From positions 868,001 to 932,000 of the forward strand of contig NZ_AP021861.1 in the NCBI RefSeq assembly GCF_009177095.1: DNA of 64,000 nt, read 5' to 3'. Positions 60,944 to 64,000 of the stretch are shown here, piece after piece (within the stretch, counting starts at the first letter, position 1; the number at the start of each line of letters is the position of its first letter). Source of the stretch: Lacipirellula parvula (lineage in GTDB: Bacteria > Planctomycetota > Planctomycetia > Pirellulales > Lacipirellulaceae). Below the pieces are notes generated by a model. That model was not told where the DNA came from, searched no databases, and saw only the letters and a program-made list of their open reading frames with translations. The position numbers and the translations under genes were made by a program.

Positions 60944-61021
60944 CATGACCGTTTGAAAGACGCCGGGCCAGCTCCCCACGTTGGCCCGGCGTTGTGCATT
61001 TTCTCGCAGAGAGCAGGCAAC

Positions 61022-62296
61022 ATGATTTTCTATCGATCGATTGGTCGGCGTACCCTCGCGGGCGCGCTGTTGACGTTGGCGTTCATTTGCGGTGCCTCCC
61101 CTGCCCTGGCGGCTGACCCGACCGGGTACGTTTACGCCTACTTCAAAGGGGGCTGGCCGACCGGCGGATCGAGCGGCGTCTTCCTTAGCTTCAGCACCGA
61201 CGGGCTGAACTTCACGCCGCTGAACAACGACCAGGCGGTCATCACGCCGCCGCGGGCGCCTGCGTTCCCCGCCGGCGAAAACCAAATGCGCGATCCGTCG
61301 GTCGTCCGCGGGCCCGACGGCAAGTTCCACATGGTGTGGACCACCGGCATTACGACGAAGACGATCGGCTACTCATCGTCAGACGATCTCGTCACCTGGT
61401 CGACGCCGAAGCGAATCGAGGTGTGGGGCGCCGGCGTCAACGTCGCCAACACCTGGGCGCCGGAACTTTACTACGACGAAGAGCAGGAGAAATATCTCGT
61501 CGTCTGGGCGTCGAACCTCAACAACGGACCGCACAAGCTTTACTCGTTCACGACGACCGACTTCGATACGTTCAGCCAGCCGAAGGAATTTTACTACGCT
61601 GGTCAAACGGTGATCGACGGGATGATCGCTCGTGACGAAGCGAACGATCGCTACCTGATGGCCGTGAAGGACGAGCTAAACGGTTTCAAGAATGTTTGGC
61701 TGGCGACGAGCGACGAGGCTCAAGGGCCTTATGTGCGCGGCGCGGCGCCGATCATTGGGCCTGGCTCGGCAATCGAACCAAATGCGGTCGAAGGTCCGTC
61801 GATCATCAAAGTTGGCGACACTTGGCAGTTGCACTACGACGCCTACGGCGCTGGCTACCTCGGCGTGGCGACTTCCACTGATTTGCAAACATGGGTCAAT
61901 CGCACAGCCGAAGCGAAGCTGCCGAACACGGGCAACCCGCACCATGGCACGGTCTTCGCCACGCCGATTTCGGCGATCGGCTTCGACCTGCCGTTTGAAA
62001 AAAGCGATCTCAACGGCGACGGCGCCATCAACCTGCAGGATTGGTCAGTGTTCCGTGCGAATCACCTCGTTGACCTGAGCGGATTGACGCCGGCGCAACG
62101 CGCGGCTCGCGGCGATCTCGACGGCAACGGCCGCATCGGCTTCGCCGACTTCCGGCAATTTCAGGCAGACTACAACTTCCTGAACGGCGCCGGCGCCTTC
62201 GCGGCGATGCTGGCGAGCGTGCCGGAACCGGCGTCGGCCCCGATGCTGGTAGGCGGGCTGGTGCTGGCCGGTTGGCATGCGCGGTTGCGGCAGTAG
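61022..62296 (+). CDS. GH43-like five-bladed propeller glycosidase with dockerin-like linker and PEP-CTERM
   Basis: 424 residues from the ATG at 61022 (a longer frame from 60953 lacks a signal). The signal peptide ends near ALAADPTG. The propeller has the GH43-type Asp91 (MRDPSVVRGPDGKFHMVW), a middle WAPELYYDEEQEKYLVVWAS and Glu257 (VEGPSIIKVGDTW). Next comes a dockerin-like linker (SDLNGDGAINLQDW; GDLDGNGRIGFADF) and the tail VPEPASAPMLVGG...RLRQ. It is a surface-anchored arabinosidase or xylosidase candidate. Its stop lies inside the ribosome-binding site of the next gene, so the two are coupled. Confidence 0.87.
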   Translation: MIFYRSIGRRTLAGALLTLAFICGASPALAADPTGYVYAYFKGGWPTGGSSGVFLSFSTDGLNFTPLNNDQAVITPPRAPAFPAGENQMRDPSVVRGPDGKFHMVWTTGITTKTIGYSSSDDLVTWSTPKRIEVWGAGVNVANTWAPELYYDEEQEKYLVVWASNLNNGPHKLYSFTTTDFDTFSQPKEFYYAGQTVIDGMIARDEANDRYLMAVKDELNGFKNVWLATSDEAQGPYVRGAAPIIGPGSAIEPNAVEGPSIIKVGDTWQLHYDAYGAGYLGVATSTDLQTWVNRTAEAKLPNTGNPHHGTVFATPISAIGFDLPFEKSDLNGDGAINLQDWSVFRANHLVDLSGLTPAQRAARGDLDGNGRIGFADFRQFQADYNFLNGAGAFAAMLASVPEPASAPMLVGGLVLAGWHARLRQ

Positions 62297-62307
62297 GTGA
62301 TCATTTC

Positions 62308-64000
62308 ATGTTGAATTGGCGATCACTCCTGCTCGTAGCGCTCTCGACTGTCGCTCTCCTCAGCGGAGAGCGCACGGTCATGGCAGTCTATTGGAACGCC
62401 GATCCAGCGTTTGGTTCAGCGTCGGTCGGCGGCCTAACGAACCGCCCGCTCTGGTTCGAGAACGTCCACGTCATCAACAACGGGACGAACAACACCCGCG
62501 GCACGGCGATGTTGCTCGATTCGCAGTGGGCCCTCACCGTGCGGCACGTCGTGCAGAACGGCGGCAACTACGGGGCGATCGCTCCGGCGGGGCAAATCTC
62601 GGTCAACGTCCTCGGCACGATCTACACGGGGAGCCAAGTCTTCACGCCCGACGGCGGTTCAGAGATGGCGCTCGTGCGTCTCTCGGCGAACGTCCCCGGC
62701 GTGCAGCCTGCGGCGCACCTGTTGAACTCGACCTTCGACGAGCCGGGCCGCATTCTGAACATCGGCGGCTACGGCCAGTGGGGGACGATCAACACGACCA
62801 ACGCCGGCGGTACGGTCGCGGGGACGAGCAGCAGTGCGGTGAGCTTTCATCATGCCTACAACACCGGCACGATCGCCGGCAACGGGCAGATTCAGATCGT
62901 TGCGAACGGCGAGCCGCTGCTGTCGACCAATCGGCTCGTCGAAGGATTGGCAGGCCCTGGCGACAGCGGCGGCCCGATGTTCGGTTTTTACGGCACGAAC
63001 TTCGGGACGCAAGCAAGCGATCCCAATCAGTGGCGGATCGTGGGGCTGACAGCGACGAGCAGCAACCCGACGGCATGGGGCGGCGCTTCGCACTACACGC
63101 GCGTCGCCGCCTATCGGAACTGGTTGGTAAGCACGATCACCTCGCGCAGTGATCTGAACAACGATCGCTTCGTCAACGGCGCCGATTGGGAGCGGTTCAA
63201 ACTCTACAACCTGACGGATCTCAGTGGACTTACGCTGGCCGAGCGTGCCGCCCGCGGCGATCTCACCGGCGATGGGTTCAACAATTTCGCCGACTTCCGC
63301 ATGTTCCAACGTGATTTCAATCTCGTGCATGGCGAAGGAGCGTTCGCTGCATTCTTGGCGAGCGTGCCTGAACCGAGCGGCGCAGCGTTGCTTGCCGTTG
63401 CATTGGCCTGCTTCGGCCGCCGTCGTCGTTTTAGCAGACTTAAGGCGTTGCGTTGCACTTTGCTCACCACGTTACTCATCGCGATGGCGACGTGCGTTGC
63501 GAAGATGGATGCGACGCAGGCCGATCCGCCCGGCGCCGGCTGGCATCTCATCCATGCAGACGAGTTCTCGACGGCGACGGTCGATCCGGTGAAGTGGGAC
63601 ACCGACTACGCCTGGGGCCGTACGCACAACCACGACGCTTACATGCTCGACTCGAACGTGACTCAATCAGGCGGGGTCCTCAGCCTCACCGCGACGCGCG
63701 AGGCGACGGGTGGCAAGGGGTTTAGCTCCGGCGTCATCAGTTCGCACAACGACTTCCGCTACACTTACGGCTACGCCGAGATGCGGATCAAGATGCCGAG
63801 CAAACGCGGTTCGTGGCCCGCCTTCTGGATGCTCGACGCCGGCTGGCCGCCGGAGATCGACATCATGGAATACGTGCTGTTCACCAATGAAACGATCAAC
63901 GATCAGTACTACGCGAACAGCCATTGGTCGACCAGCTCGGGGAACGCGTCGAACGGTCAGTGGATCGACCGCAACGTCGATCTCGGCGCCGCGTTCCACA
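62308..64000 (+). CDS. Trypsin-like protease with PEP-CTERM tail running in frame into a GH16 domain (3' partial)
   Basis: The frame opens at the ATG at 62308 (AGGTGA 7 nt upstream) and stays open to the window edge, 564 codons. A signal peptide (about 1-30) is followed by a trypsin-like domain: H80 (TVRHVV), S220 (GDSGGP) and, where Asp is usual, E119 (SEMALVRL). A dockerin-like linker (SDLNNDRFVNGADW; GDLTGDGFNNFADF) and VPEPSGAALLAVALACFGRRRR form a complete PEP-CTERM end at about residues 355-374. No stop follows: a signal-peptide-like stretch (TLLTTLLIAMATCVA) and a GH16 domain (FSSGVISSHNDFRYTYGYAE; catalytic E516-I-D-I-M-E521) continue. Either a true fusion or two genes joined by loss of a stop; a GH16 start at TTG 63448 or ATG 63484 would fit the second. 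Confidence 0.82.
   Translation, partial: MLNWRSLLLVALSTVALLSGERTVMAVYWNADPAFGSASVGGLTNRPLWFENVHVINNGTNNTRGTAMLLDSQWALTVRHVVQNGGNYGAIAPAGQISVNVLGTIYTGSQVFTPDGGSEMALVRLSANVPGVQPAAHLLNSTFDEPGRILNIGGYGQWGTINTTNAGGTVAGTSSSAVSFHHAYNTGTIAGNGQIQIVANGEPLLSTNRLVEGLAGPGDSGGPMFGFYGTNFGTQASDPNQWRIVGLTATSSNPTAWGGASHYTRVAAYRNWLVSTITSRSDLNNDRFVNGADWERFKLYNLTDLSGLTLAERAARGDLTGDGFNNFADFRMFQRDFNLVHGEGAFAAFLASVPEPSGAALLAVALACFGRRRRFSRLKALRCTLLTTLLIAMATCVAKMDATQADPPGAGWHLIHADEFSTATVDPVKWDTDYAWGRTHNHDAYMLDSNVTQSGGVLSLTATREATGGKGFSSGVISSHNDFRYTYGYAEMRIKMPSKRGSWPAFWMLDAGWPPEIDIMEYVLFTNETINDQYYANSHWSTSSGNASNGQWIDRNVDLGAAFH

Follow-up and report, generated by a model that had tools for sequence, protein, structure and literature searches.

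A PEP-CTERM tail is usually read as marking where a protein stops, and internal tails have been discounted as possibly without function. According to Haft et al. (2006), these tails lie at the extreme C-terminus, 87% of them being followed by fewer than 10 further residues; the very few found far from the C-terminus may, in the wording of that paper, be non-functional. A locus of Lacipirellula parvula, whose genome assembly is a single contig of 6.92 Mb, raises the question of what such a tail means when it stands in the middle of a reading frame. At the end of the window (the whole stretch of 64,000 nucleotides analysed here), one frame runs from a protease through a PEP-CTERM tail into a GH16 glucanase. 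The reading that we favour, and consider likely on sequence grounds, is that this ORF encodes a polyprotein of two PEP-CTERM surface proteins, which would be cut into two separately anchored enzymes. Held slightly less firmly, and still probable in our judgement, is a broader proposal for Planctomycetota, above all for the host order: chains of exosortase substrates would be made as polyproteins whose modules number from two to at least ten, the hairpin at each junction would serve as a repeatable stop-transfer/start-transfer cassette with two protease sites, and exosortase and signal peptidase would be the processing enzymes that set equal amounts of the products.

The reading frame and its two modules

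The features of the locus, in window coordinates, are the following.

60953..62296, + strand: upstream neighbour, a GH43-dockerin-PEP-CTERM gene whose tail is terminal in the ordinary way; the gene stops 11 nt short of ATG 62308
62308..64000, continuing past the window to 65919, + strand: putative polyprotein ORF, a single open frame from ATG 62308
62308..62385, + strand: first signal peptide MLNWRSLLLVALSTVALLSGERTVMA, read by eye, with a predicted cleavage site
62491..63126, + strand: S1-like serine protease domain (Pfam PF00089, trypsin, E 1.3e-05; residues 62-273)
63148..63315, + strand: dockerin-like repeat of module 1 (PF00404, residues 281-336, E 0.005, under the curated cut-off)
63364..63432, + strand: internal PEP-CTERM tail (VPEP, hydrophobic helix, RRRR; TIGR02595)
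63364..63522, + strand: junction hairpin, consisting of the tail helix, the Arg/Lys loop RRRRFSRLKALR, and a signal-peptide-like helix with a predicted site between DATQA and DPP (leave-one-out profile; signal-peptide-like rule)
63637..64000 (domain to 64170), + strand: GH16 glucanase domain (PF00722, E 8.9e-22, residues 444-621)

From ATG 62308, the frame stays free of stop codons through the end of the window and meets its stop only beyond it (L002:7919, which is window coordinate 65919), encoding 1203 aa; the uninterrupted passage from protease to tail to GH16 reported in the preliminary description is confirmed. The first module consists of a putative signal peptide, picked out by eye and by a hydropathy rule, an S1-like protease, a dockerin-like repeat, and a PEP-CTERM tail. 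The second consists of a signal-peptide-like stretch, GH16, an autotransporter-type repeat (residues 929-960), a second dockerin, and a second PEP-CTERM tail, Dockerin_1 matching the ORF as two stretches. This arrangement, several complete proteins in one uninterrupted frame, is one of the two traits of a polyprotein; the other, proteolytic separation of the modules, is predicted here from the two putative cleavage signals of each hairpin. ExDxxE is the catalytic motif of GH16, and both the family profile and this motif are present, the latter as EIDIME at 63853-63870. The second tail (VPEPGG from 65818) is terminal and scores only 12.2 bits with TIGR02595, under the cut-off of 16.

In the protease domain, the His motif and GDSGGP are intact, and the usual position of the catalytic Asp, aligned by eye, is occupied by Glu. 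The same replacement (SEMAL or SEISL) is seen in all four S1-like proteases aligned in this way, that is, the present one (window 62659-62673) and those of L005, L006, and L009, with the His motif and GDSGGP kept.

The internal tail (residues 353-375) reaches 22.9 bits with TIGR02595 when the genome is searched and 17.3 bits when module 1 is taken by itself, both above the cut-off of 16, and falls just under the cut-off of PF07589. It is followed by more than 800 residues. V-P-E-P is encoded at 63364-63375 and the Arg cluster at 63418-63429; a TTTT run occupies 63429-63432, and an out-of-frame TAG lies at 63432-63434. These positions, like that of EIDIME, are all as previously described. Against a hairpin profile from which this ORF was left out, the junction scores 31.4 bits (single-sequence E 9.3e-12), the match covering positions 1-39 of the 48 in the model. 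In leave-one-out tests of this kind, scores range from 23.8 to 38.7 bits for the eight junctions found in this genome (see below) and from 11.3 to 23.8 bits for the tails that close the same six ORFs. The loop of the protease-GH16 junction is longer than at most junctions, and its site, T-Q-A, fails the strict A-x-A pattern and passes the looser signal-peptide-like rule.

Internal tails in the genome and in its relatives

A census of the genome yielded 146 places matching TIGR02595 at E up to 0.1, with 150 of 433 candidates scored. In 140 of these places, the frame reaches a stop about 22 to 39 codons from where the motif begins; the other six tails, identified with the tail model alone, are internal, the frame continuing for at least 256 codons beyond, and all six run into a signal-peptide-like segment both by eye and by rule. 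The full frames of the six ORFs hold two more junctions, eight in total, and all six ORFs end in a tail as judged by our own pattern. ORF A is the protease-GH16 frame, B and C have three modules each, and D, E, and F have two. The genome also contains one exosortase match (PF09721, E 9.9e-56) and a signal peptidase I. ORF B (1408 aa) is separated from ORF C (1422 aa) by no more than about 15 kb (G000:C1:2844588-2862000; L103, L162), and modules 1 and 2 of C resemble, by eye, one another and module 3 of B.

The profile of the eight own hairpins was run on 43 genomes of the host family, the present one included. Twenty loci from 10 other genomes were picked for stop-free matches to the hairpin profile over all or most of its length and for long frames; five further full-length matches (one each in G014, G027, and G018, and two in G002) were left out of the count. 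Internal tails were found in 20 of these 20 selected loci, with 28 junctions, and a tail closes every one of the 20 ORFs, among which one comprises four modules (1658 aa). A second profile was made from 27 of the 36 hairpins, the nine omitted being that of the protease-GH16 junction and eight more whose loops are long or unusual; its sequences were hand-cut at the presumed site, and it was run over 246 genomes of the host order and 294 of the phylum. From its top-ranking matches, 20 loci outside the family were taken and the other matches were left out. The same detector found internal tails in 19 of these selected loci (49 junctions, 13 genomes); it missed the twentieth, L295, where the hairpin is present on a looser reading. 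Outside the family, the frames of L278 and L288 are still open at the 3′ limit of their stretch; of the 17 ORFs with their 3′ end in view, 15 end in a tail. The two exceptions, L289 (G237) and L293 (G193), have an internal tail followed by a signal-peptide-like segment and a second module without a tail of its own.

Altogether, 45 ORFs were inspected, and they contain two modules in 29 cases, three in 8, and four in 3; five, six, seven, eight, and ten modules occur in one ORF each. The longest series, in G068 (L276, G068:C91), has ten tails in 2531 aa, its 5′ end being open at a contig edge, and another frame of the same genome (L280, G068:C80) has eight PEP-CTERM tails. In G086 (L281, G086:C14), 2427 aa carry seven tails, and all but one of these seven modules cluster together by similarity. 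The supposition behind the preliminary description, that a PEP-CTERM tail has to end its protein, does not hold here, since tails inside the frame were found repeatedly both in L. parvula and in the relatives inspected.

In the phylum set of 294 genomes, which includes the present one, only G322 and G404 besides it have full-length stop-free matches near the top, among the matches listed. In the class of G322, represented by 101 tail-rich genomes, such matches are few among those listed, including ones in G322, G604, G552, and G563. The join of tail to signal peptide looks much rarer in that class; in both sets, the best candidates of each genome were scored, and absence is a weak sign.

One of the chained ORFs is conserved between species. 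ORF C, with its three modules, is matched in the congener G003 by an ORF that also has three, with 78.5, 73.2, and 82.6% identity by module, and the differences are mainly at third codon positions. The two hairpins are 64 and 48% identical, diverging faster than the modules, and both are in frame; they retain VPEP, the Arg cluster, hydrophobicity, and the small-x-small site, and their indels are whole codons. Such a pattern would be expected if both species translate through the junction, and the conservation speaks strongly against a sequencing error in ORF C.

Common architecture of the junctions and the proposed processing

At 81 of the 85 junctions, no more than 25 residues separate the Arg cluster from the start of a signal-peptide-like segment, defined as a hydrophobic core followed by a small-x-small site. 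When the terminal tails of the L. parvula genome were read through their stops as a control, such a segment was found in 2 of 140, the control demanding both the segment and an otherwise stop-free run of 60 codons. Because 77 of the 85 junctions come from loci of relatives that were picked with the hairpin profile, their likeness to signal peptides is partly selected; the unselected part is the own genome, where six of six internal tails pass. The four junctions that fail the rule (L203, which is G006:C13, L276, L278, and L280) do so owing to a longer loop. At least three of these four have a Met ahead of the signal peptide, and they may be intermediates between separate genes and the tight hairpin.

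The loops, which start at the Arg cluster by definition, contain 414 Arg/Lys against 10 Asp/Glu in 748 residues. Such a charge pattern is the one expected for a cytoplasmic loop under the positive-inside rule, a rule that Haft et al. (2006) applied to the PEP-CTERM tail itself.

The following route may be proposed from what is observed: an open frame, the motifs, the charge pattern, an architecture that recurs and is conserved, and genes for exosortase and signal peptidase. Translation would pass straight through both modules. Module 1, the protease, would be exported until the PEP-CTERM helix stops transfer in an N-out, C-in orientation, with the Arg/Lys loop remaining in the cytoplasm. The next hydrophobic segment would then act as an internal signal peptide and start the export of module 2 (GH16), whose N-terminus would be freed by signal peptidase I cutting after the small-x-small site. 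Exosortase, for its part, would cut at each PEP motif and anchor the module that precedes it. The hairpin would be left in the membrane, and one message would give two anchored enzymes in a 1:1 ratio. In this scheme, the membrane topology, both cleavages, and the equal stoichiometry are predictions.

The recurrence of internal tails in long ORFs of up to ten modules, at least one such ORF being conserved between species, suggests that bacteria may use polyproteins to coat their surface. An internal PEP-CTERM site would also offer a direct assay for exosortase, as cleavage there would alter the size of the product, and predictions of surface proteomes that expect one tail per protein would miscount such genes.

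Alternatives, origin of the pair, and known systems

Several points count against the polyprotein reading at the present locus: the protease-GH16 pair is not conserved as a fusion, the final tail is weak, the internal tail falls short of the PF07589 cut-off, the loop is long and its site departs from A-x-A, a TAG is near, and there is a possible TTG start; for the class, L289 and L293 lack a final tail. The leading alternative, although we regard it as unlikely, is that a one-base deletion, whether an assembly error or a recent frameshift mutation, joins two neighbouring genes here only, the class being real elsewhere. The TAG lies directly behind the Arg codons, and no more than 3 of 36 junctions, the present one among them, have an out-of-frame stop this near (within 15 nt of the Arg cluster); within 60 nt, however, such stops are common (25 of 36). 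A TTG 13 nt past the TAG could start the signal peptide of a separate GH16 gene, and the upstream gene pair has a similar gap of 11 nt, but a separate GH16 gene would have this TTG alone, there being neither ATG nor GTG between the tail and the signal-peptide core. A further objection comes from the same genome, in which seven sister junctions have the same architecture. In addition, 100 of 110 PEP-CTERM frames with their start in view (36 frames are cut) pass a simple and rough signal-peptide test, and several of the 10 that fail look intact by eye, so that indel errors are seemingly not frequent, as far as this indirect bound goes. The assembly error considered in the preliminary description is unlikely yet conceivable for this locus, given the near TAG and the TTG, but it does not account for the class. 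As the whole explanation, a frameshift at a single locus is rejected, because the 45 inspected ORFs with their 85 junctions share the architecture.

The distribution of the two halves among relatives also favours the deletion in part, and it informs on the origin of the pair. Long matches to the protease were found in G008, G010, G011, and G075, and long matches to GH16 in G010, G015, G025, and G075. In G010 and G075, which have both halves, these are separate genes on different contigs, and the other four genomes have one half. In G015, the separate GH16 protein begins with a signal peptide of its own at the place that the second helix occupies in the hairpin; in the 1203-aa ORF, the corresponding segment is preceded by the Arg-rich end of the protease tail. 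No fused protease-GH16 counterpart was seen among the matches listed for 147 genomes, the present one and five congeners included, with the best four candidates at most per genome. A search of genome contigs for the fused pair gave one distant locus, near records possibly being missing from that search. Since the halves are separate elsewhere and no fused counterpart stands among the matches listed, the pair looks lineage-specific, and it probably arose by the fusion of two PEP-CTERM genes in this lineage. The gene fusion proposed earlier is therefore supported. It had also been suggested that two separate genes in all relatives would make this an ordinary gene pair; protease and GH16 are indeed separate where both were found, but the same junction architecture is fused at many other loci.

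A little less probable again is a genuine fusion that stays uncut, in which the internal tail has no sorting function and the protease and the glucanase form one membrane protein with two helices. Cleavage is deduced here from sequence, and the view of Haft et al. (2006) that internal PEP-CTERM tails may be non-functional would agree with such a fate. On the other hand, C-terminal sorting tags in mid-protein do work according to Guo, Haft and Wall (2025, PMC11980579), who cite two works on this point. The hairpins of ORF C and its G003 counterpart likewise argue for function, as they diverge yet keep the PEP motif, the Arg cluster, the hydrophobicity, and the small-x-small site.

The remaining two readings are both very improbable. 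In the first, a start codon inside the junction would allow the second module to be translated separately. Between the tail and the signal-peptide core, ATG is present at 22 of 85 junctions and GTG or TTG at 48 more, but 15 have none of the three, so that downstream modules generally would be unable to start separately; an SD-like tetramer precedes the last ATG in only 3 of those 22, and without a stop the upstream protein would read through regardless. Internal initiation as a general rule is rejected on account of the 15 junctions without a start codon. Programmed slippage or readthrough, raised in the preliminary description and just as improbable, would give a stand-alone anchored protease together with the fusion by a shift at 63429-63432 that reaches the TAG, but four T in a row make a poor slip site, and slippage is unnecessary because the frame is simply open throughout.

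Returning to the polyprotein reading, its components are those of the PEP-CTERM/exosortase (EpsH) system (TIGR02595, PF07589, PF09721): the motif, the helix, the Arg cluster, a putative signal peptide per module, and an exosortase gene. Unlike in that system, the tail here is internal and is followed at once by another putative signal peptide, an arrangement repeated within a single ORF. A partial parallel is MXAN_5598 of Myxococcus xanthus, with an internal MYXO-CTERM tag, for which a gene fusion was suggested and N-terminal processing proposed (Guo, Haft and Wall 2025, PMC11980579). It resembles the present case in having its sorting tag in mid-protein and in being thought a fusion of two genes; it differs in its sorting enzyme and tag, it is the one case named in the relevant passages of that paper, and its second part is described there as an outer-membrane barrel with OmpA domains, with no mention of a second tag. 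In Haloferax volcanii, the tripartite tag of a Tat substrate, handled by the archaeal enzyme ArtA (an archaeosortase), is likewise reported to lie inside the protein and away from the C-terminus (Abdul Halim et al. 2017). Internal sorting tags are thus already known as a kind. A literature search, which covered few subscription journals and is no proof of novelty, found no report of exosortase-substrate chains joined by a tail-signal-peptide hairpin. For the ArtA system of H. volcanii, we know of no chain of several tagged modules. FbcH of Bradyrhizobium, a cytochrome b/c1 polyprotein, is cut by signal peptidase at an internal signal peptide; it shares this cut with the proposed scheme, and is not known to have a sorting tail or repeated modules.

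Two further observations concern the PEP-CTERM genes of L. parvula. By a rough rule, 11 of 43 candidate genes lying closely behind a PEP-CTERM gene on the same strand start with a prepilin-like segment, examples being found at G000:C1:463568, 3265307, 4723527, and 6279823. At G000:C1:5857624-5857735, PEP-CTERM matches overlap on opposite strands (5857624 on the + strand, 5857664 on the - strand), which may represent convergent genes sharing tail-coding DNA or a chance antisense match.
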